From the IMG/VR virus record IMGVR_UViG_3300025704_002224, positions 1-52,581 of that record: DNA of 52,581 bases, one strand, 5' to 3'. Below, one piece after another: positions 30,780 to 47,449 of the stretch. Source of the stretch: a virus. The position numbers were made by a program, and so were the translations under genes. Under the pieces are notes generated by a model that saw only the letters and a list, made by a program, of their open reading frames with translations, did no database searches and was not told the origin of the DNA. Each line of letters begins with the position of its first letter. The first letter of the stretch is position 1.

Positions 30780-31087
30780 CTATTTAAGTGGCCCGTTCTG
30801 TTGCAAGGTGGGCCATACCCCTGGGATTATTGGTTATTACGCCGCTAATCTCAATTCAGACATACCAACTGTTAAGTCAGCAAATCCTAATGCTTTTTTG
30901 TTTGCATTTAAAAAACAGCCTGATTAGGTCAGTGCCATCACCGTAAACTCCCAAGACCTTTACACACCCGTCGAAGCCAAATACACCCCCGGAAGGGATT
31001 ACATAAGCCACCCGTAATAAATTGGTGGAGGTGGAGGGAGTCGAACCCTCGTCCGAAATGTTTATTTCGTCGTGATCAACATTTACA
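30780..31087 (-). ncRNA. ssrA: Permuted (two-piece) tmRNA gene
   Basis: On the minus strand the acceptor end comes first. A T-arm (GAGGG, loop TTCGACT, CCCTC) and acceptor strand CACCTCC followed by ACCA end at 31023. A 32-base spacer (31022-30991) follows, then the tmRNA 5' end GGGGGTG at 30990, continuing TATTTGGCTTCGACGG. GGGGGTG pairs with CACCTCC (one G-U). This order is the circularly permuted form, normally cut to two RNAs. The tag frame starts at GCA 30905: 22 codons beginning ANKKALGF and ending SELRLAA, then TAATAA (30839-30834). The acceptor piece also has an AAATGTT/AACATTT hairpin. Outer ends are estimated. Confidence 0.88.
30789..30815 (-). terminator. Hairpin at the 3' end of the tmRNA gene
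   Basis: TGGCCC and GGGCCA pair with a 15-base loop. No T run follows, so it may be a tmRNA helix or processing signal rather than a terminator. Confidence 0.4.
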
Positions 31088-31093
31088 AATATA

Positions 31094-31122
31094 ATTATAC
31101 CTGAAGGTTGACGTATTGTCAA
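31094..31122 (-). promoter_or_regulatory. Sigma70-like promoter for the tmRNA
   Basis: TTGACA (31122-31117), 17-base spacer, TATAAT (31099-31094). Perfect consensus; predicted start 31087. Confidence 0.88.
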
Positions 31123-31136
31123 CTTTGTGCTAAATT
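31108..31136 (+). promoter_or_regulatory. Sigma70-like promoter with leaderless spacing, sharing -35 region with the tmRNA promoter
   Basis: TTGACG (31108-31113), 17-base spacer, TAAATT (31131-31136). Predicted start 31143, one base before ATG 31144. Its -35 and the tmRNA -35 form the palindrome TTGAC-N5-GTCAA. Confidence 0.6.
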
Positions 31137-31143
31137 AGTTTAT

Positions 31144-31347
31144 ATGCCAAAAAATAGAATATTTAAAATCACAGACGGAACAGAGACCAAGGAGGTCGAA
31201 GCGATGTCCTACAAGAAGGCCGTGAAATCATTTCAGGGCAATTCTAAGTCCAAGATGATAACTATCGAATGGATGACAAAGGGTGGAGAGCTCTTCGTCA
31301 AAGACCAGAAGTTACCACTAGGTAGAAAGAAAAAGATAGGACGTTAG
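31144..31347 (+). CDS. Small basic protein, 67 residues
   Basis: Starts MPKNRIFKITDGTETKEVEA; the promoter places the transcript start one base upstream. Lys-rich throughout, with a basic tail (PLGRKKKIGR). No membrane segment. Could be a nucleic-acid-binding early protein; no family recognised. Divergent from the tmRNA. Confidence 0.55.
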   Translation: MPKNRIFKITDGTETKEVEAMSYKKAVKSFQGNSKSKMITIEWMTKGGELFVKDQKLPLGRKKKIGR

Positions 31348-31354
31348 AAGACAA

Positions 31355-31522
31355 GTGAAAGTGAGCCATAACCCATTAGTGAAAATTTTGGTCAAACTTA
31401 GGATGGCCTATGCAGATTTCAGGGGACATCATGGTAAGGTATGGGATTACGAGCCCGGTGAGTACTACATGGGCAGGCACCAAGGACACAAGAAACACGC
31501 GAAGAGACACAAGATCAAATGA
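31355..31522 (+). CDS. Small His/Lys-rich protein, 55 residues, GTG start
   Basis: GTG 31355 to TGA 31520-31522. The C-terminal third is very rich in His and Lys (MGRHQGHKKHAKRHKIK), which suggests metal or RNA binding. The region GKVWDYEPGEYYMGRH is notable for aromatic residues. It overlaps the next small frame as ATGA, which supports both being translated. No family recognised. Confidence 0.45.
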   Translation: MKVSHNPLVKILVKLRMAYADFRGHHGKVWDYEPGEYYMGRHQGHKKHAKRHKIK

Positions 31523-31593
31523 CTAAGACGATGTGGACTATATTGCTGGTTTACACATCAATTTTCTTATACGGGTGCATAACCCTAATATAA
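31519..31593 (+). CDS. Membrane microprotein, 24 residues
   Basis: ATG 31519 overlaps the previous stop (ATGA). After MTKT come about 18 hydrophobic residues (MWTILLVYTSIFLYGC), then ITLI. It could be a single membrane helix or a lipoprotein-like peptide. The only support is the coupled start and composition. Confidence 0.35.
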   Translation: MTKTMWTILLVYTSIFLYGCITLI

Positions 31594-31627
31594 CCTAAAA
31601 CTAGCACATTACTTTTCACAATAGGTC

Positions 31628-31635
31628 AGTAAATA
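31628..31635 (+). promoter_or_regulatory. T4-type late promoter-like box
   Basis: AGTAAATA, 5 bases before GTG 31641. Confidence 0.5.
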
Positions 31636-31640
31636 TTACT

Positions 31641-31916
31641 GTGCCAAAAGCAAAAACGAAGACCGCTTATTGGTCTCAGATCCGTAAGAAGGCTCCGAAA
31701 GTGCCTGACATCACTTGCCCTGCAATTGATTCAGTGCTGAACAAGTTGGAGAAACAGGTGGATCGAGCTCTAACTATGAGACAATTTAAAATGATAGAAC
31801 GTAAGTTGGAAAAACTACGTACAGCCAATGAGAAACTGCGAGAGTCTGGTATATACTGGCACGATGCCTGCAAGAACACAGTGAGAGATCTGCTTGGCAA
31901 GAAGAAAATGAGATAA
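31641..31916 (+). CDS. Unknown helical protein with GTG start, 91 residues
   Basis: The GTG start at 31641 is supported by a late box 5 bases upstream. The protein is basic and helical (VLNKLEKQVDRALTMRQFKM, ERKLEKLRTANEKLRES), so a coiled coil is likely at about 30-70. Two Cys are present. No family recognised. Confidence 0.55.
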   Translation: MPKAKTKTAYWSQIRKKAPKVPDITCPAIDSVLNKLEKQVDRALTMRQFKMIERKLEKLRTANEKLRESGIYWHDACKNTVRDLLGKKKMR

Positions 31917-31924
31917 TTAAGTGT

Positions 31925-32137
31925 ATGTGGAAGGTACTCATCGTGATATGCACACTAGGGAATCCTTGTCTCATGTTCGATGAAGATCCTATAAAATGGT
32001 ACATGTCCGAAACAGAATGCATGAAGACGGCCGAAACAAAAGCGAGTGAAATGACAAATACATTCGTAACTTTTGGGTATTATGTGGAAAGTGAAGCACA
32101 TTCCTGCCTGTACGTGGCACAAGAAAACGAAGCCTAG
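31925..32137 (+). CDS. Small exported Cys protein (paralogue of 30566-30775)
   Basis: 70 residues. MWKVLIVICTLGNPC is a short signal-like start. MSETECMKTAETKASEMTNT, TFGYYVESEAHSCLYVA match the pattern and length of the minus-strand gene at 30566. Probably periplasmic with one or two disulfides. Function unknown. Confidence 0.55.
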   Translation: MWKVLIVICTLGNPCLMFDEDPIKWYMSETECMKTAETKASEMTNTFVTFGYYVESEAHSCLYVAQENEA

Positions 32138-32165
32138 TTGACAAAAATTTAAAGTCTGTTATAAT
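32138..32165 (+). promoter_or_regulatory. Sigma70-like promoter
   Basis: TTGACA (32138-32143), 16-base spacer, TATAAT (32160-32165). It starts a leader of about 68 bases containing GGGTTTATCCTATTGTAGG, which can form small hairpins, before AGGAGA and ATG 32240. Confidence 0.85.
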
Positions 32166-32239
32166 AAAGAGGTAATTTAGGGTTTATCCTATTGTAGGAA
32201 TTATGCCCTCGGTTGCACTCATTAACTATAGGAGATAAT

Positions 32240-33319
32240 ATGAGCAAAGTAAAAATGCTTCTTGACGTTGTAAACGAAGTCAAGAAAGAAGCACCAGATG
32301 ATGTTCCAAATTGGAACAGTAAATTAGCAGAAGCAAAAGTAAATCTACAGAATCAAATAGCAAAAGGCAGATTATTGCCGAGAGGTGTTGAAGACCATCC
32401 ATTAGAACACTTCGCATTCAACTATTCCGTACAGAGAGACGTGAGAGCAGGACATGTCATGAACATCATGAAGAAGTTTGATCCAAGGGTTTGTTGTCCT
32501 GTGTCGGCGGTCAAACGTTCAGACGGAGAGACACTGTACATATTCGATGGGCAACACAGGGCGGTCGCCCTGGCATTACTGGGTTGGACCAAGATACCAG
32601 TGACCATAGTGGAGACAGATGAACCGGCCTTTGACGCAGAGGCGTTCGAGATAGTGAACGACTCAGGTATATTGAGGGCAGGCACGGAAGAGATACACAG
32701 ATGTCTACTGCACAGATACAAGATGGGAGAAACTGAAACAGAACGGGTAGCAACAGCACACGCAGTACAGAAAGTGTTCGACGAGTGTGAGATAGACCTA
32801 GAACCAAAACGTGTCAGGAAGAGTCCAGGCAAGTGTGGACCGAACAAGCACTACTTCTCACATTTTGATTACGCATACAAAGGCATCAAGATGTCAGGCG
32901 AGGAAGGATTGCGTAACGCACTCATGGCCATCAAAGAAGTCTATGGTGACGAAGAAGGCGGAGAGATCAACCAGGGACTGTTCATTGGTCTGATGAAGCA
33001 GTACCAAATGGGTGCAGAGGCCAAGAGGTTAAGCAGACTGCCTGAGGATTGGATGTTGAAGATACTGGCCACAACTAAAAAGGTTTGTCCGAGTGCCACA
33101 CTGATACACACAGCCACGAAGAAACAATGGCAACACGCGAACGGTGTTGGGTGGGACGCACCGGTGGCAATGGGCCATATGCTTAAAGAAGTGTATCAGA
33201 TAGAACAACCAGAAGGCTTCGAACCAAGTTATATGCCCAACGTGACACTGAAATTGGACGAGAGTGACATAGCACCAGATTCAGAGGCACAGACGGCGTT
33301 CAACAAGTATGTCAAATAA
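32240..33319 (+). CDS. ParB/sulfiredoxin-fold protein
   Basis: 359 residues from ATG 32240, with AGGAGA 6 bases upstream. The motif YIFDGQHRAVALALLG (D103-G-Q-H-R) is the ParB/Srx-fold nucleotide site (GxxR). The flanking QNQIAKGRLLPRGVEDHPLE and WTKIPVTIVETDE fit the fold. The C-terminal 200 residues are helical and unassigned (GLFIGLMKQYQMG, WMLKILATTKK). ParB-like domains in phages act as CTP-dependent DNA binders, nucleases or regulators. It is likely early by its promoter and overlaps the next gene by 11 bases. Confidence 0.75.
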   Translation: MSKVKMLLDVVNEVKKEAPDDVPNWNSKLAEAKVNLQNQIAKGRLLPRGVEDHPLEHFAFNYSVQRDVRAGHVMNIMKKFDPRVCCPVSAVKRSDGETLYIFDGQHRAVALALLGWTKIPVTIVETDEPAFDAEAFEIVNDSGILRAGTEEIHRCLLHRYKMGETETERVATAHAVQKVFDECEIDLEPKRVRKSPGKCGPNKHYFSHFDYAYKGIKMSGEEGLRNALMAIKEVYGDEEGGEINQGLFIGLMKQYQMGAEAKRLSRLPEDWMLKILATTKKVCPSATLIHTATKKQWQHANGVGWDAPVAMGHMLKEVYQIEQPEGFEPSYMPNVTLKLDESDIAPDSEAQTAFNKYVK

Positions 33320-33524
33320 ATTTTGCTATTACATATGCACAGTGACCAAGTCAGTCCCAGACTCCATAAACTTCTTCGAGGAAGAGGAGGAGTACGGTTA
33401 CGGACTGCCATGGAAGGATGTACTTGCAGAAGTGGAGCAACACTACAAGGACGGAGCACTTGCAGTGGAACTAGAGATGATAACAGAGGAGCAGTTCAAT
33501 GATAGACTTCCAAAGCCTTATTAA
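33309..33524 (+). CDS. Unknown acidic protein, 71 residues
   Basis: Overlaps both neighbours (11 and 26 bases). Strongly acidic (FFEEEEEYGYG, ELEMITEEQ). Two Cys near the start. No family recognised; the chained overlaps suggest a coupled early unit. Confidence 0.5.
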   Translation: MSNKFCYYICTVTKSVPDSINFFEEEEEYGYGLPWKDVLAEVEQHYKDGALAVELEMITEEQFNDRLPKPY

Positions 33525-34029
33525 TTTACCCGAGATAAACTTTAAGAGCAAGGGAAGACCAGAACTTAAGGAACTTGCGGAATACATTGATCACATGAAA
33601 ACGGATTTGTTCAATGACCGTTGGAGCCAAGTGACCAAAAAACACATAAAAACATCCTTGGTGCTGTACATAAGATCCATGCAGAAGCAGTTGGCACCCA
33701 TGGGATACCATTACAAGGCACAGGACATGGAAGGCAAACAACACCTAGAACATGTGATACCACAGAACAAGATCATAACAGCATACCTACATGACAAGAT
33801 ATCATCAGAAGTTGTACTGCAGATGCCGTTGTGTCTGATTGACGATGCAGACAAGCATATATTAGAAGGCGACTGGCAACAGGCCGGCAACTGGGAGTAT
33901 CCATTTCGCAGATACAAGTTGGCAGGTTACACCAAAGTGATCAAAGATGTGCGTGGCAATGCTGTTGATCTAGACACATACACCATACAAGATCACTTCC
34001 GGATGTTGGGTGTGGTTGACTTATCCTAG
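33499..34029 (+). CDS. Unknown 176-residue protein, weak HNH-like motif
   Basis: Starts MIDFQSLINLPEINFKSKGR. The segment HLEHVIPQNKII at about residue 83 looks like the EHxxP motif of HNH/His-Me finger nucleases, but the later Asn/His residues are not evident. Rich in Lys, Leu and His. It is the last gene before a new promoter. Function unknown; nuclease is a guess. Confidence 0.5.
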   Translation: MIDFQSLINLPEINFKSKGRPELKELAEYIDHMKTDLFNDRWSQVTKKHIKTSLVLYIRSMQKQLAPMGYHYKAQDMEGKQHLEHVIPQNKIITAYLHDKISSEVVLQMPLCLIDDADKHILEGDWQQAGNWEYPFRRYKLAGYTKVIKDVRGNAVDLDTYTIQDHFRMLGVVDLS

Positions 34030-34043
34030 TATTTGTGTATAAT
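34016..34043 (+). promoter_or_regulatory. Sigma70-like promoter
   Basis: TTGACT (34016-34021), 16-base spacer, TATAAT (34038-34043). The leader of about 66 bases contains the palindrome ACCAGAGCTGGT (near 34062). Confidence 0.72.
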
Positions 34044-34115
34044 TAAAAACAGCAAATCCACCAGAGCTGGTACGATACCAATTCTCATTTGCAATCTAAA
34101 AATTAGAGACACTTT

Positions 34116-34208
34116 ATGTCGATGATGGATAGAATAGCCGGAGGCGGAGCAAAACAATCCTACGCCAAAGGCGAGGTTGGAGTCAATAACGGACTGGTGG
34201 AGAGCTAA
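34116..34208 (+). CDS. Small peptide gene, 30 residues
   Basis: ATG 34116 to TAA 34206-34208. Gly-rich and hydrophilic (MSMMDRIAGGGAKQSYAKGE). The next gene starts 6 bases later, so it may be a leader peptide or an upstream cistron. Weak support beyond promoter and spacing. Confidence 0.35.
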   Translation: MSMMDRIAGGGAKQSYAKGEVGVNNGLVES

Positions 34209-34213
34209 ACATT

Positions 34214-34723
34214 ATGCCAAGCGAGAAAACAAAAAAATTACTGGAAGGACTGGGCAAGATCACAGACTCTGCACCCAGCAGGTTCGAACAACAGAAGTTC
34301 CATTCCTACACCAACAGATACTATCCCAACCTGTTAAACAAACTGCCGGCATCCTACGACAAAGCCAAGAGAAAGAAGGACGAAGACGGAGACGAGTACA
34401 TCATGATAGACAGGGTGTATGGATCACTGTATGAGAATGCACTGCACCAAAAAGACGGCACAATCTACACAGGCAAGCTCTACAGCAAACGTAGACTGGT
34501 TACCCAAAAGGATGCAATGACCAATGAGAAGAACAACTTCTACAGTGCCTGCGTGAGCACAGCGGATGGTAGATGGTTTGACAACTGTGGATTTCCAATA
34601 GAAGCACCCACCAAACTGGAACCAGAGAAACAGCCAGATCCGGAAGAATTGGAACTGGAGAGACAAAGGAAACTGGAAAACGCAAAGGCCAAAGAGGCAG
34701 AGATACTGGCCAACCTCAAATAA
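34214..34723 (+). CDS. Unknown 169-residue protein
   Basis: Basic N-terminus, central region with Tyr and Asp (DEYIMIDRVYGSLYENALHQ) and a highly charged helical end (PEELELERQRKLENAKAKEA). Two Cys in the middle (SACVSTADGRWFDNCGFP). No family recognised. It ends just upstream of the promoter of the second TTT operon. Confidence 0.55.
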   Translation: MPSEKTKKLLEGLGKITDSAPSRFEQQKFHSYTNRYYPNLLNKLPASYDKAKRKKDEDGDEYIMIDRVYGSLYENALHQKDGTIYTGKLYSKRRLVTQKDAMTNEKNNFYSACVSTADGRWFDNCGFPIEAPTKLEPEKQPDPEELELERQRKLENAKAKEAEILANLK

Positions 34724-34736
34724 CCAACAAAGACTA

Positions 34737-34765
34737 TAGACATTCAATCTCAAATATGATATAAT
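34737..34765 (+). promoter_or_regulatory. Sigma70-like promoter for the second TTT operon
   Basis: TAGACA (34737-34742), 17-base spacer, TATAAT (34760-34765). The 27-base leader carries AAAGGA before ATG 34799. Confidence 0.8.
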
Positions 34766-34798
34766 TTGTTGTAAAACTCAAATAAAAGGAAAAATAAT

Positions 34799-35716
34799 AT
34801 GAAAAAGATATTGTCAGTTCTTCTGTCGGCTTTTCTTCTTTTCACGGCAGACGTTCTTGCTGGTGATAAAATAATTGTGTTGAATACAGCCAGTAACAAT
34901 GGAACAATGTTCTCGCAATCAACAGCATATGCAGAAGATTTTAAAAACATGGGATACGATGTTGAATTCGTGTCTCCGGGTAACGCTTGTAAGGCTTGGG
35001 CATACCTACAGAAAGTGCCATCCAACCAACCCGTGTTTATAAACATAGATGCTTACGGACAGGCCAAACCTGCATCTGGACTTTTACAAAACTGTGGTCC
35101 AATATTGGCCAGCAAGAAAGATCTTGTTGCCGCTTACTTAGATCATTTCCATGTGTGTACAATAAATGGATCGGCCGATGAATTATTTTCTAAGGGTGCG
35201 AGCACAAGGATAGGCACTAACAAGCCTGGTGGATTTTGGCAACCGGTGGTTGATAAAATCAATAAAGAAAATAAATCAAGTCATAAGAGGATACAGTACG
35301 GCGGCAGTGGAGACACGAGAAAAGCATTACTTTCAGGCGAAGTGGATTATGTGTTCTTATCAACACGCCACACATACAAACTAGAAAATGCGGGAGCAAC
35401 TTGTTTTGCCGAGTTCACTGATTCTAAAAAACTCAAATACGAACACACTGTTAACGACCTGTCAGCAGGTAAGGATAAATTTGATTCTAGTTTCGCGACT
35501 GGTTGGAGTTTGTTCAATGCTGACAAGAAAATGGTTAAGCAACTGAGAGTGCAGATTAGATCGTTATTTGAAAATGATAGTAACATCATCAAAGCATTAG
35601 GCGGTTCAACACCGATCAACTATTACGGTTGGGACAAATCTATTTCTGCTAGGGTGAAATGGGTAAACGGCTCTATAGATAGATGGGCACAGGCTATGAA
35701 GCAGGCCGCTCAATAA
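34799..35716 (+). CDS. tctC: TctC-like periplasmic substrate-binding protein (second)
   Basis: 305 residues. Signal peptide MKKILSVLLSAFLLFTADVLA, cleaved before GDK. The mature part has the TctC-like segments IGTNKPGGFWQPVVDKINKE, then IQYGGSGDTRKALLSGEVDY, where the ligand-dependent hinge region is expected. It differs clearly from the first TctC (7470), so it is not a recent copy. Two extra Cys pairs are visible (PGNACKAW, LQNCGPI, FHVCTI). It would feed the permease encoded after it. Order here is C-A, the reverse of the first pair. More AT-rich than the first TTT pair. Confidence 0.8.
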   Translation: MKKILSVLLSAFLLFTADVLAGDKIIVLNTASNNGTMFSQSTAYAEDFKNMGYDVEFVSPGNACKAWAYLQKVPSNQPVFINIDAYGQAKPASGLLQNCGPILASKKDLVAAYLDHFHVCTINGSADELFSKGASTRIGTNKPGGFWQPVVDKINKENKSSHKRIQYGGSGDTRKALLSGEVDYVFLSTRHTYKLENAGATCFAEFTDSKKLKYEHTVNDLSAGKDKFDSSFATGWSLFNADKKMVKQLRVQIRSLFENDSNIIKALGGSTPINYYGWDKSISARVKWVNGSIDRWAQAMKQAAQ

Positions 35717-37020
35717 GGCCAGTGGACTTTCTACTTGCAATCATACTAGGTATATTTGCAGGAACATTTGCAGGTTTACTCCCAGGGGTGGGGGCAACCG
35801 TAAGTGTCTTAATTCTATTCCCAGTACTGCTTACATTTGATCCTATAAACATCATTGTTTGTTTCGTCAGTTTGTATTCCATGACGCAGTATGTTGGAAG
35901 TGTACCCGCATTATTGCTAGGTGTTCCTGGGGAAGCCAGTTCATTACCTGCAGTCATTGAAGGGCAAAAACTAAAACAACAGAACAAGATTAGTGATGCT
36001 ATTGCATACACGGCAATCGGATCCCTCGTGGGATCGGTAATCGTCGTGGCACTTACACTTATCAGCGGACCGCTTATTGAGAACCTTGCTAAAATTTATA
36101 GGACACCTCTTCAGACTGTTTTGATCTTTTTAGTGCTGACGATGATGTTTTTCTACAAGGAAAATAAGAAATTTACTAATCTTGTGTTAATGATCGCTGG
36201 TTACGTACTTGGCATGATAGGCATACACGGAGACCTTAATCGAGAATTTTTAACATTTGGTAACGTTAATCTCTACAGTGGTCTGCCTATGTTTCCAGTG
36301 CTACTTTCATTATTTGTATTTCCATTATTCTTAAAGACTGTAGACACTCCTACTAGAAATATTTCACCTTTCAAAATAAGGCTATCGTACTTTGTGACCT
36401 TTTTCAAACACAGTACAAGTAGCCTACGCGGAACACTACTAGGATTCATAGGAGGCTTTTGTCCTGGGATGACACACGCCTTCAGTAGTCAACTGGCATA
36501 CACAACAGAAAAAGCAATCAGTAAAGACAGTCTAAAAAGTGTTATAAGTTCTGAAACGGCCAACAATGCCGGAGCGTTCAGTGCCGTGTTGCCATTGATA
36601 ATCCTCGGCATTCCTATATCAAGCAGTGAGGCTCTACTGCTGGCTATCCTGGAAACAAAATCTTTTGCATTCAGCCTTAATGAGTTTATTCCTATCTTGC
36701 AGAAATCAGCGGTGGCATTATTAATTGTAAACGTCATAGGGATTATCATTGCATGGCCACTTGCTAAACATGTTTGCAAAATATTTCTTATAAATCAAAA
36801 AAAATTATACACATTTTTGTTTCTATCCTTGGTCATGCTGAATTACTATATTGGTGGCCTTTACTACAGCGAATATTACTACATGATAGTTTTATTATGT
36901 TTTATGCCGGTAGGCTATCTGTTACGCAAAGTAAACACAATGCCGTTGATATTTTGCTTTATAATAGCGAACTACAGTATCGAACTCATGTGGATTTTTT
37001 ACCAACTATACCTAATGTGA
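35683..37020 (+). CDS. tctA: TctA-family permease (second)
   Basis: 445 residues if it starts at ATG 35683; a GTG at 35722, just after the tctC stop, is the likely alternative. About 10-12 membrane segments. GTFAGLLPGVGATVSVLI and LLGVPGEASSLPAVIEGQKL are the two TctA signatures. A second loop FIGGFCPGMTHAFSSQLAYT and GIPISSSEALLLAILE mirror them, as expected from the internal duplication. It overlaps tctC by up to 34 bases. Together with 6041 this is a second, distinct carboxylate-type importer on a phage. No TctB gene is found. Confidence 0.85.
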   Translation: MGTGYEAGRSIRPVDFLLAIILGIFAGTFAGLLPGVGATVSVLILFPVLLTFDPINIIVCFVSLYSMTQYVGSVPALLLGVPGEASSLPAVIEGQKLKQQNKISDAIAYTAIGSLVGSVIVVALTLISGPLIENLAKIYRTPLQTVLIFLVLTMMFFYKENKKFTNLVLMIAGYVLGMIGIHGDLNREFLTFGNVNLYSGLPMFPVLLSLFVFPLFLKTVDTPTRNISPFKIRLSYFVTFFKHSTSSLRGTLLGFIGGFCPGMTHAFSSQLAYTTEKAISKDSLKSVISSETANNAGAFSAVLPLIILGIPISSSEALLLAILETKSFAFSLNEFIPILQKSAVALLIVNVIGIIIAWPLAKHVCKIFLINQKKLYTFLFLSLVMLNYYIGGLYYSEYYYMIVLLCFMPVGYLLRKVNTMPLIFCFIIANYSIELMWIFYQLYLM

Positions 37021-37112
37021 TAATAAACAGTCAGCCTGTTGAAAAACTTTAAGTATTATAACTATGTACACTATATATAACGGAGTCAAAAAAACAAAAC
37101 AAATCTAGCACA

Positions 37113-38621: not shown

Positions 38622-38628
38622 AATTGAT

Positions 38629-38712: not shown

Positions 38713-39360
38713 ATGTTAAAAAAATATCTTAGAAGATTTGTTTATTTCTGCATAGCAGTAGTATTTGTGATCGCAGGTGCATGGGTGGCCGGGACGTTCA
38801 ATCCAAACGATTACACAGTGCAAAAGATTGAGGACGAGTTCCACAAGAAAGAAATGCGGATAATAGAAGAACTTGGTTTGAAAGAACCAGAATTTGAGTT
38901 CTCTGACAAGGTTTCTTTTATTAATGCCACATCCACATGTGTTTCATATCTTAACTGGACCACAGACAAAGACAAGAGGGTGCCAATCAGCATCATAATT
39001 GCCATGGCGGGCATAGAGAGTGCATGGGGTACCAGCAGATTTGCCACAGAAGGCAATGCATTATTTGGTGTGAGGACATGGAGTCTTGATACTGTACCAC
39101 ACATGAAAGCCCTGGGTAATCCAGATGCCAGTTGGGGTGTAAAGAAATACAAGACGAAATGTCAATCAATCAAGGACATGATAAGGATATTGAACACACA
39201 TCCTGCGTATGAAAAATTTAGATCTGCAAGAGAATTACAACTGGAAACAGGCACCTGGAACTATCGTGAACTGCTGTCGGGCATGACTGCTTGGAGCACC
39301 AACCCAGACTATGCGGAAATCATACTTCAAACCATAGTTGACAATAAATTACCTCAATAG
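38713..39360 (+). CDS. Membrane-anchored glucosaminidase-type peptidoglycan hydrolase
   Basis: 215 residues. An N-terminal signal-anchor (FVYFCIAVVFVIAGAWVAG, residues 9-28) precedes a stalk of about 45 residues and a glucosaminidase domain. IIAMAGIESAWGTSRFATE carries the catalytic Glu E102, and GNALFGVRTWS is the family follow-on. It resembles the C-terminal domain of Bax/FlgJ. The anchored form suggests a signal-arrest-release type endolysin or cell-wall remodeller, acting in the periplasm. The ATG follows the structured element. Confidence 0.82.
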   Translation: MLKKYLRRFVYFCIAVVFVIAGAWVAGTFNPNDYTVQKIEDEFHKKEMRIIEELGLKEPEFEFSDKVSFINATSTCVSYLNWTTDKDKRVPISIIIAMAGIESAWGTSRFATEGNALFGVRTWSLDTVPHMKALGNPDASWGVKKYKTKCQSIKDMIRILNTHPAYEKFRSARELQLETGTWNYRELLSGMTAWSTNPDYAEIILQTIVDNKLPQ

Positions 39361-39371
39361 TATAATAAACT

Positions 39372-40052: not shown

Positions 40053-40058
40053 TGTTGT

Positions 40059-40202
40059 ATGATTAAACTAATAATACTATTTGCAATCTTCCTAGCGGTA
40101 TATCCGATGATAGGTGAAGGTTGGGCGGCATTCAGCAATGACTTCAATGTTGCTGGTGTGTCTGACTTCATATCAGAGCAGATTGCAAAATTTAAACAGT
40201 AA
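40059..40202 (+). CDS. Small membrane or exported protein, 47 residues
   Basis: ATG 40059 coincides with the predicted transcription start, and no Shine-Dalgarno site exists. MIKLIILFAIFLAVYPMIG is one hydrophobic helix or signal peptide, followed by a polar tail (GVSDFISEQIAKFKQ). The next gene, a lipoprotein, starts 8 bases later. It heads an exported-protein cassette. Function unknown. Confidence 0.6.
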   Translation: MIKLIILFAIFLAVYPMIGEGWAAFSNDFNVAGVSDFISEQIAKFKQ

Positions 40203-40210
40203 GGATAACA

Positions 40211-40762: not shown

Positions 40763-40766
40763 GGCT

Positions 40767-41123
40767 ATGAGAAATTTATATTATATTATTGCCCTGGCAT
40801 TCCTTACACTGGGATTGATAATATTTTCCACAACCGCAAATGCGGGTGGCCCATGGAACGATCAATATTGTGACGTAGAAATCACAAAGATAAAGGTTGT
40901 TAACGAAAAAGGTGAAACCATAAAAAATCTCACAGAAGAGAAAGTCACTTGCAATGACGGAGCCTCGGATTTCCTGTACGACTCGGGCATAGCAAAAAAA
41001 TGTGAGATGTACACATGGGATATGCCTATCGGCAATGTATTAGTTACTCAGAGGCAAGTTGCCTGCGAAAAAATAGATGGGAGTGGATATGAGATTGTTC
41101 AAGGTTATCACAGTATTGATTAG
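40767..41123 (+). CDS. Exported protein of unknown function, 118 residues
   Basis: Signal peptide LYYIIALAFLTLGLIIFSTT, cleaved after ANA. The mature part starts GGPWNDQYCDVEITKIKVV, with four Cys likely in two disulfides. No known domain. It begins 4 bases after the lipoprotein stop; its end overlaps the next gene by 35 bases. Confidence 0.68.
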   Translation: MRNLYYIIALAFLTLGLIIFSTTANAGGPWNDQYCDVEITKIKVVNEKGETIKNLTEEKVTCNDGASDFLYDSGIAKKCEMYTWDMPIGNVLVTQRQVACEKIDGSGYEIVQGYHSID

Positions 41124-41520
41124 CCTGATGCTGTCAAGCACAGCACTAGGTGACACAAAAGGACAAATAGGAAACATGCCAACACCAGAGTATTGGGGAG
41201 AACAGCTCAAATACAGTGCACCTTCTTTCAGGTTCACACGAACACAGTTTATTGGATTTTGGCTCAAACGAGAAGAGAAGAAGATGCACCAATCAGCGGT
41301 GTATTTCGCACTCGAAAACGCAGAGAACGGCAAGATCGTCAGTTGGTACAGCAAGAAGCGTCTGGCGGCGGGCAAGGTGCGTGTGATACATTCATACCCA
41401 ATATCAGGCGGATATTGCCGTACGTACCAAGCATACATACAGGTCAAACGCAAATCACGGCACATGACCAACAACGCCTGCAAATATATTAACGACACAC
41501 CTTGGGTGTTTTATAAATAA
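41089..41520 (+). CDS. Exported protein resembling the rickettsial 17 kDa surface-antigen C-terminus
   Basis: 143 residues from ATG 41089, preceded by GGGAG at good spacing (an ATG at 41077 lacks one). Signal peptide MRLFKVITVLISLMLSSTALG. The C-terminus SGGYCRTYQAYIQVKRKSRH, then NACKYINDTPWV, resembles the GRYCREYQ...ACRxxxGxW end of 17 kDa surface-antigen-type proteins of alphaproteobacteria. That suggests a host-derived envelope protein. Its stop lies inside tandem late boxes. The similarity is by eye. Confidence 0.62.
   Translation: MRLFKVITVLISLMLSSTALGDTKGQIGNMPTPEYWGEQLKYSAPSFRFTRTQFIGFWLKREEKKMHQSAVYFALENAENGKIVSWYSKKRLAAGKVRVIHSYPISGGYCRTYQAYIQVKRKSRHMTNNACKYINDTPWVFYK
41512..41519 (+). 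promoter_or_regulatory. T4-type late promoter, exact TATAAATA (first of two)
   Basis: TATAAATA overlapping the previous stop codon, 37 bases before ATG 41557. Confidence 0.65.
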
Positions 41521-41524
41521 TCAG

Positions 41525-41532
41525 TATAAATA
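41525..41532 (+). promoter_or_regulatory. T4-type late promoter, exact TATAAATA (second of two)
   Basis: TATAAATA again, 13 bases (about one helical turn and a bit) after the first. ATG 41557 follows 24 bases later. Confidence 0.7.
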
Positions 41533-41556
41533 AGTTTATAACACAGGAATTTACAA

Positions 41557-42198
41557 ATGGCAACAGTTCAAGCAAGACATGAAAGAAATGACCCAAACGC
41601 AGGAATGCAGGGTGCATACTACACAGTAGACATAGCGATGGGTGCCTTCTTAGACACAGAAACAATCAACGGTGGAAGACTTTCTCCGTGTGCGGCGAAC
41701 GACTTTGCTACGAAGCCAACTACACTTGCACAGTCTTTATTAGTTTCAAGAGGACAATTAAGGTACAAGATGATGTTGAACAATCTTCAGATCAGATCAA
41801 ACTGCAGGATCATCAACATGGTTACGACTTATTCCAGTGATGCTGGCGATAACCCAATCACAGACATAAACTTTGGTATAGTTTTTGAAAACGACGACTT
41901 CGTACCAACAACAGGTACACAAGCGGATGACTCAACTACTACAACGACCAAAGTGTTGTACATCAAAGACAAGATCGCAGAAGCACTTTACGCCTCTCAC
42001 ACAGAGCTTATGACTGTGTTCAATCCAACTTCAGGTGCAGGCCTTATACAAAACACAGAAGTTTCTGTTGGCCCTGTTATGCTTGTGAGTCAAGATGAGA
42101 TTTTAGACGGTATCACAGTTGCAGAAGTGGCTGGATTCAGATCTAACGTTGACGCAGAAACACCTACAGACAACGCACTAACTTACTCAGCAGAGTAA
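41557..42198 (+). CDS. Virion-type protein, 213 residues
   Basis: Thr/Asn/Asp-rich, with little charge contrast and no signal peptide, starting MATVQARHERNDPNAGMQGA. Predicted mixed beta (INMVTTYSSDAGDNPITDIN, NFGIVFENDDFVP). Two exact late boxes upstream and AGGA before the ATG indicate strong late expression. I do not recognise the family; an abundant structural role is inferred. Confidence 0.62.
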   Translation: MATVQARHERNDPNAGMQGAYYTVDIAMGAFLDTETINGGRLSPCAANDFATKPTTLAQSLLVSRGQLRYKMMLNNLQIRSNCRIINMVTTYSSDAGDNPITDINFGIVFENDDFVPTTGTQADDSTTTTTKVLYIKDKIAEALYASHTELMTVFNPTSGAGLIQNTEVSVGPVMLVSQDEILDGITVAEVAGFRSNVDAETPTDNALTYSAE

Positions 42199-42253
42199 TA
42201 ATCAATAATTTTTATTTTTAAAAAGTTAGTAAGAAAATTCTGACTTGAAACTA

Positions 42254-42538
42254 CTATTCGTCTGCGTAATCTAAGTTAATTGCAGTAGAGCCATCCACAG
42301 AAGTGAACGTGCCGTCGTATGCCGCTGGCAAACTATCGCCTGCCCTGTACTTGGTTTTCCAATCTAATACCCATGCGGCCCAGTCTGCCTTGAATGCCGC
42401 CCTCTCCGACTTCACGTCAACCCTTAGGCCGTCTGTGCCTGTGATATCCGCCTGTGAGTGTGCTATACCATTTGGACTACTCGGAGTCGTTGGTTTGTTC
42501 AAAGTTGATTGTGTTGAATGAAGTGTAAGGTCCGCCAT
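42254..42538 (-). CDS. Unknown 94-residue late protein
   Basis: I chose ATG 42538 (MADLTLHSTQSTLNKPTTPS) because a GGTAAATA late box ends 5 bases before it; ATG 42568 is an alternative, with TATAAATT further upstream. Rich in Asp, Ala and Trp (FKADWAAWVLDWKTKYRAGD). Could be a tail-fibre accessory or chaperone by size and place; no motif. Divergent from the 42607 gene. Confidence 0.52.
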   Translation of the reverse strand: MADLTLHSTQSTLNKPTTPSSPNGIAHSQADITGTDGLRVDVKSERAAFKADWAAWVLDWKTKYRAGDSLPAAYDGTFTSVDGSTAINLDYADE

Positions 42539-42543
42539 ACGTA

Positions 42544-42551
42544 TATTTACC
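42544..42551 (-). promoter_or_regulatory. T4-type late promoter-like box (minus strand)
   Basis: GGTAAATA on the minus strand, 5 bases before ATG 42538. Confidence 0.45.
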
Positions 42552-42588
42552 AAACTATTCAGTAGCATAAATGCAGGCTTTAATTTAT

Positions 42589-42596
42589 AGTAAATA
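42589..42596 (+). promoter_or_regulatory. T4-type late promoter-like box
   Basis: AGTAAATA, 10 bases before ATG 42607. A minus-strand TATAAATT abuts it at 42588-42581. Confidence 0.5.
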
Positions 42597-42606
42597 CACT
42601 TTATAA

Positions 42607-44601
42607 ATGTTTATCGCGATACTCACATTACTATCAGCACTGTCCATATCAGGAGTTGCAATATTCTACTCTGTGATTGGACTTGCGACCATATTCCCAG
42701 GTGCTTTCGTGCCTGTTGTGATCATGGGAGGTGTGTTGGAAGTGGGTAAACTTATAACGGCCTCATGGCTGTACAGGAACTGGAAGTTCACTCCGTTCAT
42801 GTTGAAGACCTATCTGACAACGGCCGTCATAATACTTTCGTTGATAACATCAATGGGTATCTTTGGTTTCCTATCAAAAGCACACCTGGAACAGAATCTG
42901 GCCTCGGACACACTGATACAACGTATACAGATACTAGAGGACAAGATTGACAGCGAGAAGAACTCCATAGTGAGGCAGAATGCAGTCATAGACAGGCTGG
43001 AGAAATCCATAAACAGAAGCACAGGAACTGCCGACGGAGACATAGAAGTGCAACAACAGATCATCGCAGATGCCAATGAAAAATTAAAAACACTACTTAC
43101 GGTCGAGACCAACACGGTGCGAGACCTAAACGACAGGCTGAAGGTGTTAGACAAGAACGTCAGTGACATACTGACTTCAAACAAATCATTCTTCAACGAA
43201 GAGAAAGCGGCCGCAGACCTAAAAGCAAGTCAGAAAGAGGAACGTGAACTGATAGCAGTAAACGTCAAAGAAGCACAGGACAGGATTTCAGAACTCAAAG
43301 CAGATCACAAGGCAGAGACCGCAGAAGCAAAAACTGTGATCGCCAACATGAGATCAGGATCACAGGACAACAAAAGCACGTTCACACAGGAGATAGAAAC
43401 AGCTGAACAGAAGATATTCGACTCACAGGGCAGGATAGACCTATTCATAGTAGACAAGCAACCACTTGAGAAAAAGATGCTGACACTGGAAGCAGAGATC
43501 GGGCCTGTGAAGTACATAGCCGCACTGGCAGTGGATTGGGGTATAACGGACCAGGTCGAGACTAGCAAGGCTGTAAGGTGGGTTATATTGCTGTTAATCG
43601 TGGTGTTTGATCCCTTAGCAGTATTACTATTGATCGCGGCCAACCAGAGTTTGATGAGAAGATTCCCACCAGAAGCACCAAAACCGCAGGAAGTTATAGA
43701 CCTAGAGAAACCAGATGAAGAGGATGTCACACTCAAATGGAACGCAATGATGGACAAGTCAAACGCGGCGGCCAGGATGGAAGAGGCCACAGAACAACTG
43801 CAAGAGTGGAAAGACAAACTGGAATCATTCAACACCAAGGTACCAACACCTGAGAGCAGACCTGTTGAAATCGTACAAGAGGACAACAGTACGATTCCAC
43901 ACATAGATCTCGTAGGCCAAAAAAAAACTGAAGACAAAGAAATAGTAGCAGATAACACATTAGATGGATTCGATCCGGACGAAGTCATGTTCGACATGGT
44001 TGAAGAACCAGAAGTAGACAAGGACAAACAACTAGAAGAATTCAAGAAACGTGAGCAAGAAGAACTTGCCGCACTCCAAGAGTATTCACGTAAGGCCATG
44101 GAAGAAAATGCAACAACAGTAACGGTCGAAGAGGCATTGAAAATGTCTGAAGCAGAAAGTGTTGAGACACCTATACAAGAAGAACGTATCAAACCTGACC
44201 TAACAGAAGTCATTGAACCAGAAGCCGAAATAGAAAAACCAAAGAATGTTGTCAAAAATTCAAAACCCAGAGTGATGAGGACAATACGACCAACCGAGGA
44301 CAGGCCCCCAAAGCCGATTCTGAGTAATTGGCAAAGAGCTGAATTACTCGACAACTTCCACAAAGAACACGGCAACTTCGAAGACGTCCAAGACTACGTG
44401 CAAAACGAAGAGCAGGGTGATACAACTACCTGGAAAAAGATAAAAAATAAAACCACAACAGAGGAAGACTATCATCTAAGAATGGAACAGAGGATAGAGG
44501 ACTTGATGGCAAAAGTTGAAGCAGGAGAAACAAAATTAGAAGACTTGACTGCAGAAGACAGACAAGTTATAATGGATATAAGAAATCAAAACGAGGTTTA
44601 A
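42607..44601 (+). CDS. Membrane coiled-coil protein, 664 residues
   Basis: The N-terminus has about three membrane segments (ILTLLSALSISGVAIFYSVI, ATIFPGAFVPVVIMGGVLEV, TTAVIILSLITSMGIFGFL). A long coiled coil follows at about 95-300 (EDKIDSEKNSIVRQNAVIDR), then another membrane segment near 320-345 (VILLLIVVFDPLAVLLLIA). The tail is very acidic with heptads (EEFKKREQEELAALQEYSRK). I recall this protein as common in marine T4-like phages. Its function is unknown; membrane remodelling or tail-length-type roles are guesses. It heads a unit with clpX and bS21. Confidence 0.72.
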   Translation: MFIAILTLLSALSISGVAIFYSVIGLATIFPGAFVPVVIMGGVLEVGKLITASWLYRNWKFTPFMLKTYLTTAVIILSLITSMGIFGFLSKAHLEQNLASDTLIQRIQILEDKIDSEKNSIVRQNAVIDRLEKSINRSTGTADGDIEVQQQIIADANEKLKTLLTVETNTVRDLNDRLKVLDKNVSDILTSNKSFFNEEKAAADLKASQKEERELIAVNVKEAQDRISELKADHKAETAEAKTVIANMRSGSQDNKSTFTQEIETAEQKIFDSQGRIDLFIVDKQPLEKKMLTLEAEIGPVKYIAALAVDWGITDQVETSKAVRWVILLLIVVFDPLAVLLLIAANQSLMRRFPPEAPKPQEVIDLEKPDEEDVTLKWNAMMDKSNAAARMEEATEQLQEWKDKLESFNTKVPTPESRPVEIVQEDNSTIPHIDLVGQKKTEDKEIVADNTLDGFDPDEVMFDMVEEPEVDKDKQLEEFKKREQEELAALQEYSRKAMEENATTVTVEEALKMSEAESVETPIQEERIKPDLTEVIEPEAEIEKPKNVVKNSKPRVMRTIRPTEDRPPKPILSNWQRAELLDNFHKEHGNFEDVQDYVQNEEQGDTTTWKKIKNKTTTEEDYHLRMEQRIEDLMAKVEAGETKLEDLTAEDRQVIMDIRNQNEV

Positions 44602-44605
44602 TTAC

Positions 44606-44977
44606 ATGGGACTGAACTTAAAAATGTTTGACACTCTAGGTATGTTGACTGTGGTGACACCACCGTCCATGATGAATCCGGAAAAGCTCAGTTTCACCAT
44701 CATAAATTTGAGGGAAAAGGAAAAGAACCACTTTGCAAAAGCATTGAACACATTGTTTCCAAATGATAATATCACAGTGTACATGTATGATCACCCCGGA
44801 TACCAGGAATGGCTGGAACAGGCCATCACGAAATCTAAATACATAATAATGGAAAAAACCAAAGCGCCGATATGGATCCAAGAAATGGCACCTGAGAAGA
44901 AAACTTATTATGTTTCTGAAGAACAAACAATAGAAAAAACATTTGAGATAATCAATAAAAAAGAAAGCGAGGCCTAA
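44606..44977 (+). CDS. Conserved phage protein, 123 residues
   Basis: It follows the membrane protein by 4 bases, and its stop overlaps the clpX start (TAATG). A mixed alpha/beta protein (NITVYMYDHPGYQEWLEQAI, KYIIMEKTKAPIW) that may be a small Rossmann-like fold. I recall relatives in T4-like cyanophages but no function. Its coupling to clpX makes an adaptor role worth testing, but that is inference. Confidence 0.62.
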   Translation: MGLNLKMFDTLGMLTVVTPPSMMNPEKLSFTIINLREKEKNHFAKALNTLFPNDNITVYMYDHPGYQEWLEQAITKSKYIIMEKTKAPIWIQEMAPEKKTYYVSEEQTIEKTFEIINKKESEA

Positions 44978-46227
44978 TGTCAGAAGAAGCGTTGATATGC
45001 TCATTCTGTGGCAAGAGTCGTAAGGACGTCACGAAGATGATCGTGGGCGCCAAGAAGACATCTATCTGCAACGAGTGTGTAAAACTATGTGTAGAGATAC
45101 TGGACGAAGATGTGATCAAAGCACGGAAAGAAAAACTGTACGCAGGAGACAAGCACATCCTAAATCCCGTGGCCATTAAGGAACACTTAGACCAATATGT
45201 CATAGGACAAGATCAGGCCAAGACGGTGTTGAGTGTGGCCGTGGCAAACCACTACAAGAGGATAGTTCAACCACCCATTGACTTCGATCTCGATAAATCA
45301 AACGTCATGGTGCTAGGAGCCACAGGTGCTGGTAAGACACTGATGGCAAGAACAATAGCAAAGTACCTAGACGTACCATTCGCTATAGCGGACGCCACGA
45401 CTCTCACAGAGTCAGGATACGTGGGCGATGATGTAGAGAACGTGGTGCAGAAACTTTACGCCAACTCTGAGGGTGACATAGAGAAGACACAGAAAGGCAT
45501 AATATTCATAGACGAGATCGACAAGATATGCAGGAAAGGTGAGAACACATCACTGACCAGAGATGTATCCGGTGAGGGTGTGCAACAAGGCCTACTTAAA
45601 ATTGTTGAAGGAACCGAGTGCAGGGTACCGCCACATGGAGGTAGGAAACATCCAGACCAACAGACCATAACAATAGACACCAGTAACATCCTGTTCATAG
45701 TGGGTGGTGCATTCACGGAACTGGAGAAACAGATCAGAAGGAAGAAAGCATCAGGGGGTATAGGATTTGGAACCAAACTGCAGGAACAAGACGACAGGAA
45801 TTACCTGTCAGAAGTTCAACCTGAGGATCTTATCAAATACGGACTGATACCGGAGTTCGTGGGCAGGTTCTCCATGATCACCAACATAGATCCCTTGGAC
45901 GAGGCGCAGTTGATAAGGATACTGACAGAACCCCGTAATGCCATCCTTAAACAGACCAAGTACCTGTTTGGATTGGACAACATAGAAATTGAGTTTACCA
46001 AAGAGGCCAAGCAGAGCATTGCAGGTAAGGCCAAAGCACTAGGTACCAATGCAAGGGGACTGAAAAACGTAGTAGACACAGTGGTTCTACCCTATCAGTT
46101 TGACGCAGAGGAAATGAGGAACAGGGGAGTCAGCAAGATACAGATAACTAATGCGGTGGTTGACAAAGGAGCAGACCCTGTGTTAGTATTTAAAAAAACA
46201 AATGGAATATCAAAAAAACAAAGTTAG
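44977..46227 (+). CDS. clpX: ATP-dependent protease unfoldase ClpX
   Basis: 416 residues, full-length. Zinc-binding domain Cys8, 11, 31, 34; Walker A GATGAGKT (114-121); pore loop GYVG (147-150); Walker B IIFIDEID (175-182); RKH loop (223-225), which binds ssrA tags; IGF loop (262-264), which docks ClpP; PEFVGRF and NARGLK sensors. Every functional motif is present, so it could dock on host ClpP and unfold tagged proteins. Walker A has GATGAGKT instead of the usual GPTGSGKT. It overlaps the bS21 gene by 26 bases. With the tmRNA and ClpS it forms a phage protein-quality set. Confidence 0.97.
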   Translation: MSEEALICSFCGKSRKDVTKMIVGAKKTSICNECVKLCVEILDEDVIKARKEKLYAGDKHILNPVAIKEHLDQYVIGQDQAKTVLSVAVANHYKRIVQPPIDFDLDKSNVMVLGATGAGKTLMARTIAKYLDVPFAIADATTLTESGYVGDDVENVVQKLYANSEGDIEKTQKGIIFIDEIDKICRKGENTSLTRDVSGEGVQQGLLKIVEGTECRVPPHGGRKHPDQQTITIDTSNILFIVGGAFTELEKQIRRKKASGGIGFGTKLQEQDDRNYLSEVQPEDLIKYGLIPEFVGRFSMITNIDPLDEAQLIRILTEPRNAILKQTKYLFGLDNIEIEFTKEAKQSIAGKAKALGTNARGLKNVVDTVVLPYQFDAEEMRNRGVSKIQITNAVVDKGADPVLVFKKTNGISKKQS

Positions 46228-46495
46228 ACCCAAGTTCAAGAAAACAGAGAGACCTTTGGGTTTCCAGGGCTACTACGTGGAAGTGCGTGAGGGAGAAGAT
46301 GCCGTCAGGGCATACAGGAAGATCAAGAGATGGATCAAGGAAGACAAGTTCATTGACCAGATCAGGGCCAACAACACTTACCAAAAACCATCAGAGATCA
46401 AAGTAGAGAAAGCCAAGGAACGCAGGAAGGTGCTACGAAAACTGCGTAGGGAACGCGACAGTTTCATATCAATGCGTCCACAAAGAGGCAGATAA
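46202..46495 (+). CDS. rpsU: Ribosomal protein bS21 homologue
   Basis: 97 residues. YYVEVREGEDAVRAYRKIKR, then YQKPSEIKVEKAKERRKVLR, follow the bS21 pattern (VRExEsxdxALRRFKR, then YEKPxxxRKRK). A basic tail ends RPQRGR. It has about 24 extra N-terminal residues against typical bS21 (55-75 residues). bS21 sits on the 30S platform near the anti-Shine-Dalgarno and helps initiation. Phage copies are known. The start lies inside the clpX end, so the two are coupled. Confidence 0.85.
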   Translation: MEYQKNKVRPKFKKTERPLGFQGYYVEVREGEDAVRAYRKIKRWIKEDKFIDQIRANNTYQKPSEIKVEKAKERRKVLRKLRRERDSFISMRPQRGR

Positions 46496-46517
46496 TTTTA
46501 CCAACATAGGTCGTAAT

Positions 46518-46545
46518 TTGACATATAGCACATATATGTTATAAT
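46518..46545 (+). promoter_or_regulatory. Sigma70-like promoter for hsp20
   Basis: TTGACA (46518-46523), 16-base spacer, TATAAT (46540-46545). Predicted start 46552; leader of 69 bases. Confidence 0.85.
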
Positions 46546-46551
46546 AAATAA

Positions 46552-46620
46552 AGTTGAAGATTGCTTTAGATAGGATCTTCACTATTAATAACTCGCTTAA
46601 ACTTAAAAGGAGGAAAGCAC
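46552..46620 (+). promoter_or_regulatory. hsp20 5' leader, candidate RNA thermometer
   Basis: GAAGAT (46556-46561) can pair with ATCTTC (46575-46580). TGCTTT (46562-46567) is fully complementary to AAAGCA (46614-46619), which lies between the AGGAGG site and the ATG. The two helices could alternate and mask the start region. Heat-shock leaders of hsp20 genes in alphaproteobacteria often are thermometers; this one is only a candidate. Confidence 0.4.
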
Positions 46621-47073
46621 ATGAAAAACAATCTATCTATTTTTAACAACCTAAGACCACTAACCGTAGGGTTTGACAATGTATTCGATCAATTGGAATA
46701 CATGATGGAAGACCGTTTCTTTGAGAAGTCGGGCAACAATTTCCCACCATACAACATAGTGAAGACCGGTGAGAACACTTACGACGTTGAACTTGCACTT
46801 GCAGGTTTTGGGAAGGATGACATAGTAGTAGAGTACAAAGAAAATACACTTACTGTGAAATCAAAACCAAACAAAGACCCAGCAGACGAAGTTGAAAGTT
46901 ACGACGAGGGAGTGATACACAGAGGCATCTCAAAAAGGATGTTCACTAGATCATTCACTATTGCAAATGACGTGGAGGTCAAAGGTGCAGAACTGAAAGA
47001 TGGTTTACTTAAAGTGAGCCTGGAGAGAATAATTCCAGAACACAAAAAAGCAAAAACTATTGAAATCAAGTAA
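46621..47073 (+). CDS. hsp20: Small heat-shock protein Hsp20 (IbpA-type)
   Basis: 150 residues. The alpha-crystallin domain runs about 40-135: NFPPYNIVKTGENTYDVELA, LAGFGKDDIVVEYKENTLTV, and the closing GLLKVSLERIIPEHKKAKTI. The N-terminal arm is LTVGFDNVFDQLEYMM and the C-terminal tail KTIEIK holds the I-x-I motif. It holds unfolding proteins soluble, without ATP. Strong AAAAGGAGG site and promoter. Marine T4-like phages commonly carry hsp20. A hairpin follows the stop. Confidence 0.93.
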   Translation: MKNNLSIFNNLRPLTVGFDNVFDQLEYMMEDRFFEKSGNNFPPYNIVKTGENTYDVELALAGFGKDDIVVEYKENTLTVKSKPNKDPADEVESYDEGVIHRGISKRMFTRSFTIANDVEVKGAELKDGLLKVSLERIIPEHKKAKTIEIK

Positions 47074-47085
47074 AGCAAAGTGGAT

Positions 47086-47105
47086 AGGGTGGTAATTACC
47101 ACCCT
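47086..47105 (+). terminator. Hairpin after hsp20
   Basis: AGGGTGGT pairs with ACCACCCT around AATT, a perfect 8-10 bp stem, but only TTCCAT follows. Probably a terminator in both directions, or a stabiliser of the hsp20 mRNA end. Confidence 0.65.
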
Positions 47106-47112
47106 TCCATAA

Positions 47113-47140
47113 TTGACAACTTGTGTAGATATGCTATAAT
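47113..47140 (+). promoter_or_regulatory. Sigma70-like promoter with exact leaderless spacing (clpS)
   Basis: TTGACA (47113-47118), 16-base spacer, TATAAT (47135-47140). Predicted start is exactly ATG 47147. Confidence 0.88.
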
Positions 47141-47146
47141 AAAGGT

Positions 47147-47449
47147 ATGGAAATGACAGATATACAAACACTTACAAAAGAAAAAATTAAACTAGACGAG
47201 CCGGGACTATATGACGTTTTATTCCTCAACGACAACATCACGACCATGGAGTTCGTTGTCAAGGTTCTCAAACAGATCTATGGCAAGACACCAGAGCAGG
47301 CACAGAACATCACAACAAAGATACACCAGGACGGACAGGGCATTGTTGGATCTTACGTGCATGAGGTTGCCGAACAGAAAGGCATAGAGACCACACTGGC
47401 CGCGAGACAGGAAAACTTCCCACTACAGGTCAAAGTCAAGAAGCAGTAG
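47147..47449 (+). CDS. clpS: ClpS-like adaptor protein
   Basis: 100 residues. YDVLFLNDNITTMEFVVKVL carries the ClpS core (LxNDDxTxMEFVVxVL), where the Asn and acidic residue bind the N-terminal amino group of substrates. KTPEQAQNITTKIHQDGQGI, SYVHEVAEQKGIETTLAARQ and NFPLQVKVKK follow as in ClpS (H in VH or IH). ClpS hands N-degron proteins to ClpA and lowers ssrA degradation by ClpAP. The N-terminal extension is short. Leaderless by promoter spacing. Next gene starts 1 base after the stop. Confidence 0.9.
   Translation: MEMTDIQTLTKEKIKLDEPGLYDVLFLNDNITTMEFVVKVLKQIYGKTPEQAQNITTKIHQDGQGIVGSYVHEVAEQKGIETTLAARQENFPLQVKVKKQ

Follow-up and report, generated by a model that had tools for sequence, protein, structure and literature searches.

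Every part of the gene set considered here, namely a transfer-messenger RNA (tmRNA), the unfoldase ClpX, the adaptor ClpS and the small heat-shock chaperone Hsp20, has already been reported in phages. In AP-J-162, a phage related to Sinorhizobium phage Phosso, tmRNA, ClpX, other Clp genes, Hsp20, DnaJ and ribosomal protein bS21 have been published (PMC11242549). Agrobacterium phage Atu_ph07 was published with genes for ClpX, ClpA, ClpB, ClpS and Clp peptidase (PMC6102473), and a published table gives 0 tmRNA for it (PMC11242549). In a survey of bS21 phages covering 900 genomes, the counts for the ten-gene neighbourhood of bS21 were 127 for Hsp20 and 50 and 47 for Clp proteases (PMC9723584). 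According to a review, the phage ClpS likely delivers targets to host ClpAP (PMC7824862).

We analysed the whole 52,581 bp of an IMG/VR virus contig (IMGVR_UViG_3300025704_002224; the window), which has a guanine and cytosine content of 42.7%. It is part of the larger genome of a large marine phage. The closest named phages, at about 42% identity of one conserved phage protein, are the Pelagibacter phage HTVC008M and marine T4-like cyanophages. Identification of the host from the nearest bacterial ClpX was uninformative, the top bacterial matches being about 50% identical and coming from many phyla. Two other contigs, G012 and G017, overlap by 18,650 bp at 100% identity and represent a single phage whose genome spans at least about 209 kb and which belongs to the clade of the window (ClpX 76%, ClpS 78% identity).

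A preliminary description of the window had listed tmRNA, ClpX with RKH and IGF loops, Hsp20 and ClpS as a set that could take over host proteolysis. All four are real and intact, each scoring above curated cutoffs. This inventory had overlooked bS21, and the tmRNA turned out to be a two-piece molecule encoded on the opposite strand. The best explanation of the set, which we consider evenly poised between right and wrong, is that it forms a phage kit that would reprogram the host Clp protease during infection.

Genes, order and promoters of the ClpX cassette

The AAA+ unfoldase ClpX is encoded at 44,977-46,227 on the plus strand. It is full-length and scores 534.6 bits with the NCBIfam ClpX equivalog model against a cutoff of 359. 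The protein has the C4 zinc finger, Walker A and B motifs, pore loops including GYVG, sensor 2, RKH and IGF. Among phage ClpX proteins, the zinc-finger cysteines and GYVG are present in 84/84 and RKH in 74/84, and the ClpP docking loop (IGF, MGF, VGF or LGF) is retained in all 84. The start of the bS21 gene (46,202-46,495, plus strand; PF01165) overlaps the end of clpX. It is followed on the same strand by Hsp20 (46,621-47,073; PF00011, alpha-crystallin domain, 61.4 bits versus 20.8) and by ClpS (47,147-47,449; PF02617, 87.9 bits versus 23).

For the analysis of gene order, clustering of 84 ClpX loci at 90% identity gave 49 clusters; at least 9 kb of downstream sequence was available in 35 of them. 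The loci were picked by ClpX similarity, and the counts therefore tell what follows ClpX and not how frequent the cassette is. ClpX, Hsp20 and ClpS occur in this order on one strand in 32 of the 35 independent clusters, bS21 adjoins ClpX in 30, and the median gap between Hsp20 and ClpS in the ClpX-selected loci is 79 bp. The order ClpX-bS21-Hsp20-ClpS is kept despite ClpX identity of just 41-50% between phages. The ratio of nonsynonymous to synonymous substitutions (dN/dS) is 0.02-0.06 for ClpX, 0.03-0.07 for ClpS, 0.03-0.11 for bS21 and 0.12-0.19 for Hsp20, with no value given for pairs whose synonymous sites are saturated. The cassette genes are under purifying selection.

Perfect sigma-70 promoters (TTGACA-N(15-19)-TATAAT) were found seven times in the window, versus 0.07 expected, and three of the seven precede tmRNA, Hsp20 and ClpS. 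The Hsp20 promoter (46,518-46,545, plus strand) has 0-1 mismatch in 14 of the 14 clade loci that reach the site; the ClpS promoter (47,113-47,140, plus strand) is preserved to the same degree in 10 of the 12 that hold ClpS. The tmRNA promoter (31,094-31,122, minus strand) has a spacer of 17 nt; among 13 other tmRNA genes of the clade, 7 have it in perfect form, and most others have a perfect -35 and a different -10 box. These promoters suggest that a host-type RNA polymerase transcribes the genes. The other four, at 4,705-4,733 (minus), 32,138-32,165, 39,338-39,366 and 50,499-50,527 (all plus), precede unrelated genes, the last being upstream of a ferredoxin gene.

The two-piece tmRNA

The tmRNA gene was located at 30,787-31,126 on the minus strand and is of the two-piece (permuted, alpha-type) form according to Rfam and ARAGORN. 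The match to RF01849 (alpha_tmRNA) over these positions is 88.8 bits (cutoff 50), that to RF04321 (tmRNA_permuted) 109.9 bits (cutoff 47). ARAGORN places a permuted tmRNA at 30,746-31,118 of the minus strand with the tag ANKKALGFADLTVGMSELRLAA. The acceptor piece (3') precedes, its CCA ending at 31,023, and the mRNA-like piece runs from 30,990. The tag frame with its two stop codons was assigned by ARAGORN to 30,834-30,905 on the same strand. The C-terminus of the tag is RLAA, as in the tags of all close relatives.

Across 30 relatives, the stems covary: double changes that preserve pairing occur in 26 of the 51 consensus pairs, four of the five pairs in the T stem show unbroken covariation, and two acceptor pairs covary as well. 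The alanine-identity pair G3-U70 is found in 30/30 sequences, and the CCA end is present. SmpB was not found in 24 phage records, those of the G012/G017 phage included, so host SmpB would be needed for the phage tmRNA to work. The tag core ALGFADLTV is absent from 385 alphaproteobacterial genomes, a limited sample. Copying of the phage tag from a host tag was considered and is unsupported, as the pattern is missing from these sampled genomes.

An inverted repeat, TTGAC-N5-GTCAA, lies over the -35 box of the tmRNA promoter (31,122-31,094) in the window and in most relatives and is a possible operator. The tRNA-like end (31,023-31,080) exists in distinct versions among the relatives, with T loops GGTTCGACTCC, GGGGCAGTACC and GTTCAAATC, and the tag and linker are nearly the same. 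These ends look as if they had been swapped among phages or with hosts.

ClpS pocket, ClpA module and neighbouring genes

The phage ClpS retains Asn47, Thr51, Val56 and His79 (Caulobacter numbering) and the residues that contact ClpA; the contact Glu and Lys of EVAETK are present in 80/80 phage sequences. In Caulobacter ClpS, the alpha-amino group is contacted by Asn47, Asp49 and His79, and the specificity pocket is lined by Met53 and Met75 (PMC12493166). Asp49 is changed to Asn in 63 of the 80 phage proteins and Met75 to Thr in 68, compared with Asp49 in all 50 and Met75 in 48 of 50 alphaproteobacterial ClpS. The window protein carries both changes and keeps Asn47, Met53 and His79. Leptospira ClpS1 has Asn at the Asp49 position (PMC12493166); the Asp49-to-Asn change therefore also occurs outside phages. 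A quick tree sets the phage ClpS apart from the bacterial set with support of 0.79, the exceptions being Phosso, Atu_ph07 and record L062. Matches of ClpS to TAL repeats in the PDB were rejected as spurious.

The G012/G017 phage has a gene for full-length ClpA (782 residues), in which a Clp_N domain and the IGF loop are present. The TIGR02639 score of this protein is 888 bits, just under the equivalog cutoff of 993. The gene stands behind those for DnaJ and peptide deformylase, and almost every one of 80 ClpA loci has a DnaJ-(deformylase)-ClpA module of this kind. Since a phage of the clade has its own ClpA, host ClpA is not the only possible partner of ClpS. ClpP was not detected in the near clade, the G012/G017 phage included, whose genomes are incomplete. 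More distant phages with the cassette have their own ClpP; G028, for example, carries ClpX, ClpA, ClpS, ClpP, Hsp20, DnaJ and tmRNA. The near clade seems to supply unfoldases and an adaptor and to borrow the peptidase.

The changed pocket allows a bolder proposal, which we regard as rather doubtful. ClpS with phage ClpA would form a phage-owned N-degron pathway that reads N-terminal residues other than those read by the host adaptor. Together with a phage-specific ssrA tag and phage ClpX, it would constitute a second, virus-written degradation code imposed on host ClpP.

Upstream of ClpX, the plus-strand gene at 42,607-44,601 encodes a protein of 664 residues that combines membrane helices at its N-terminus with a coiled coil; it has no family above cutoff, and no function was assigned to it. 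A match to this protein lies just upstream of ClpX in 74 of the 76 loci with room for it, although distant matches may reflect the coiled coil only. Between them, a 123-residue protein (44,606-44,977, plus strand) overlaps the clpX start and has no Pfam or PHROG match. Downstream of the cassette, genes for glutaredoxin, a radical S-adenosylmethionine protein, ferredoxin FdxA, a SufE-like protein and a SUF assembly protein (48,003-51,892) form a possible iron-sulfur supply set. At 6,041-8,516 and 34,799-37,020 there are two transporter-like sets that by eye resemble tripartite tricarboxylate transport, each with a large membrane protein and a periplasmic binding protein; the first pair has no NCBIfam match.

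Explanations of the gene set and comparison with known phages

The mechanism that we infer, including host ClpP use, tag recognition, N-degron specificity and timing, would be as follows. The phage itself would produce the factors for substrate choice and unfolding, and it would borrow from the host those for the chemistry, ClpP and SmpB. With host SmpB, the tmRNA would free ribosomes stalled on broken mRNA and add the RLAA-ending tag to the unfinished chains. ClpX, of the phage or of the host, would unfold the tagged proteins into host ClpP, and ClpS with phage or host ClpA would feed proteins with destabilising N-termini into the same peptidase. In E. coli, ClpS turns ClpA from ssrA-tagged substrates. 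The phage ClpS would likewise divert ClpA from such substrates and leave them to ClpX. Hsp20 would keep unfolded proteins soluble, and bS21 may be swapped into host ribosomes simultaneously. Likely gains would be amino-acid recycling, removal of host proteins and clearance of unfinished polypeptides.

That the four genes recur together in relatives, a check that could have refuted the preliminary description, was borne out in 42 records selected through ClpX or ClpS, where ClpS is present in 39 and Hsp20 in 38; tmRNA is present in just 25. The set is not limited to four, as bS21 belongs to the cassette and ClpA is found in the clade phage. Several observations, this tmRNA count among them, weigh against reprogramming of the host protease. 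In the window, the tmRNA lies about 14 kb from the cassette and on the opposite strand. In the marine T4-like phages Mosig and Melnitz, tmRNA is accompanied by Hsp20 and bS21, and both ClpX and ClpS are absent. Four contigs (L219-L222) keep Hsp20, ClpS and tmRNA and have an unrelated gene of 229 residues, without a Pfam match, at the place of ClpX. The LAA end of the tag is that of ordinary host-readable tags and does not require phage ClpX, since the tags of Mosig and Melnitz end in LAA too. Perfect promoters of neighbouring genes are not independent of each other, and the promoter link was spotted post hoc. ClpA was seen in relatives only and not in the window. The G012/G017 genome is not closed, and ClpP or SmpB may lie in its missing part.

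Because of Mosig, Melnitz and the ClpX-less contigs, the tmRNA is, by comparison of the genomes, the loosest member of the set, and the loss of ClpX need not entail that of ClpS. Within the closest group of ClpX records (the window and 15 relatives, L001-L015), tmRNA is present in 14 of 16, the other two being fragments of 22 and 46 kb. Contigs with the tag pattern and without ClpX or ClpS are short fragments, uninformative on absence. In the four ClpX-less contigs, bS21 has moved behind ClpS, and the tag reads ALAFKPEVTVPVSIFADRELVAV, with VAV at its end in place of LAA. Strict co-evolution of tag and ClpX was rejected, as Mosig and Melnitz keep ALAA ends without ClpX and VAV in one ClpX-less sublineage is a single event. 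An AAA protein beside bS21 in Mosig was also rejected as ClpX, being of the AAA_5/CbbQ type.

The main rival to reprogramming, which we think fairly unlikely, is that the set has a chaperone function in the late production of proteins. ClpX, ClpA, Hsp20 and DnaJ would keep phage proteins foldable during the heavy late synthesis of big virions, proteolysis would be minor, and tmRNA would be a separate aid for ribosome rescue. Hsp20 and DnaJ are of holdase and foldase types, the near clade has no detected ClpP, bS21 has elsewhere been linked to late structural gene expression (PMC9723584), and a review of jumbo phages proposes that ClpA and ClpX act in translocation or help in assembly (PMC7824862). 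Such a role leaves the cassette's most persistent member with Hsp20, ClpS, unexplained. To our knowledge, ClpS has no role except substrate delivery. The ClpP docking loop, retained in all 84 phage ClpX sequences, would be expected to drift if ClpP was not used, and distant phages with the same cassette, such as G028, encode ClpP. The gene set could also serve quality control only: when host mRNAs are cut and ribosomes stall, an extra dosage of tmRNA, ClpX, ClpS and Hsp20 would clear the translation machinery with degradation targets unchanged. We consider this improbable. It agrees with an intact and strongly promoted tmRNA, with an RLAA tag readable by ordinary ClpX and with the tmRNA of Mosig and Melnitz; the two changed pocket positions of phage ClpS, however, point to altered substrate choice, and the middle of the tag, not found in the 385 alphaproteobacterial genomes, does not look host-copied.

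Much less probable is a counter-defence role, in which the kit would mainly remove, or protect against, host defence proteins or labile antitoxins. Antitoxins and stress regulators are under Clp protease control, and gene content varies as in conflict genes, with ClpX replaced in one sublineage. The very low dN/dS and the rigid synteny across distant phages nevertheless resemble core housekeeping and not an arms race, and no defence target was identified. That unrelated genes are chance neighbours in one contig is the least credible explanation of all. The remote position of the tmRNA on the other strand would fit it; for the cassette it is refuted by the order ClpX-bS21-Hsp20-ClpS in 30-32 of the 35 independent clusters and in Pseudomonas phage PA5oct.

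Phage takeover of transcription and of translation is well known, and a conserved kit for ATP-dependent proteolysis, if true, would be a third arm. Reprogramming of the host protease is directly testable, as there are isolates that carry the cassette, namely Phosso on Sinorhizobium meliloti, and PA5oct and Paride on Pseudomonas PAO1. The natural pocket variants of ClpS may be of use for studies of N-degron specificity, and the ClpX-less sublineage with the VAV tag is a natural experiment on the co-evolution of tag and unfoldase.

Among open-licence papers, no description was found of the cassette as a unit, of its combination with a ClpA module in phages that have no detectable ClpP, of the ClpS pocket signature or of the shared promoters. 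The bS21 survey (PMC9723584) gives counts and describes no defined cassette and no link to ClpS or tmRNA. Mosig and Melnitz resemble the window in their permuted alpha-type tmRNA, Hsp20 and bS21 and differ in lacking ClpX and ClpS and in tags that end in ALAA. A glutamine riboswitch is associated with the tmRNA of Melnitz; in the window, none was found at the Rfam cutoff. Atu_ph07 has Hsp20 near ClpS like the window, whereas no tmRNA was found in it. RF00023 matches in PA5oct, Atu_ph07 and Phosso were tRNA-sized, fell under the cutoff and were rejected; an exact-sequence tmRNA search in named phages yielded mostly tRNAs.

The preliminary description knew of no single phage with the full set. 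Phosso (PV764938) has all four, and the parts are published in jumbo phages. Like the window, it carries ClpX, Hsp20, ClpS and an alpha-type tmRNA, detected only with RF01849, whose tag reads ANDNVSTKVALAA; it also carries DnaJ-deformylase-ClpA. Unlike in the window, its genes are spread over hundreds of kb, with ClpX at 381 kb, Hsp20 and ClpS at 397-398 kb, and a thymidine kinase gene between them. PA5oct and relatives such as Paride differ from the window in that no tmRNA was found in PA5oct and its ClpX is 42% identical. PA5oct has DnaJ-ClpA without the deformylase. In gene order, these phages match the window, with ClpX and bS21 followed by two small hypothetical genes, Hsp20 and ClpS.

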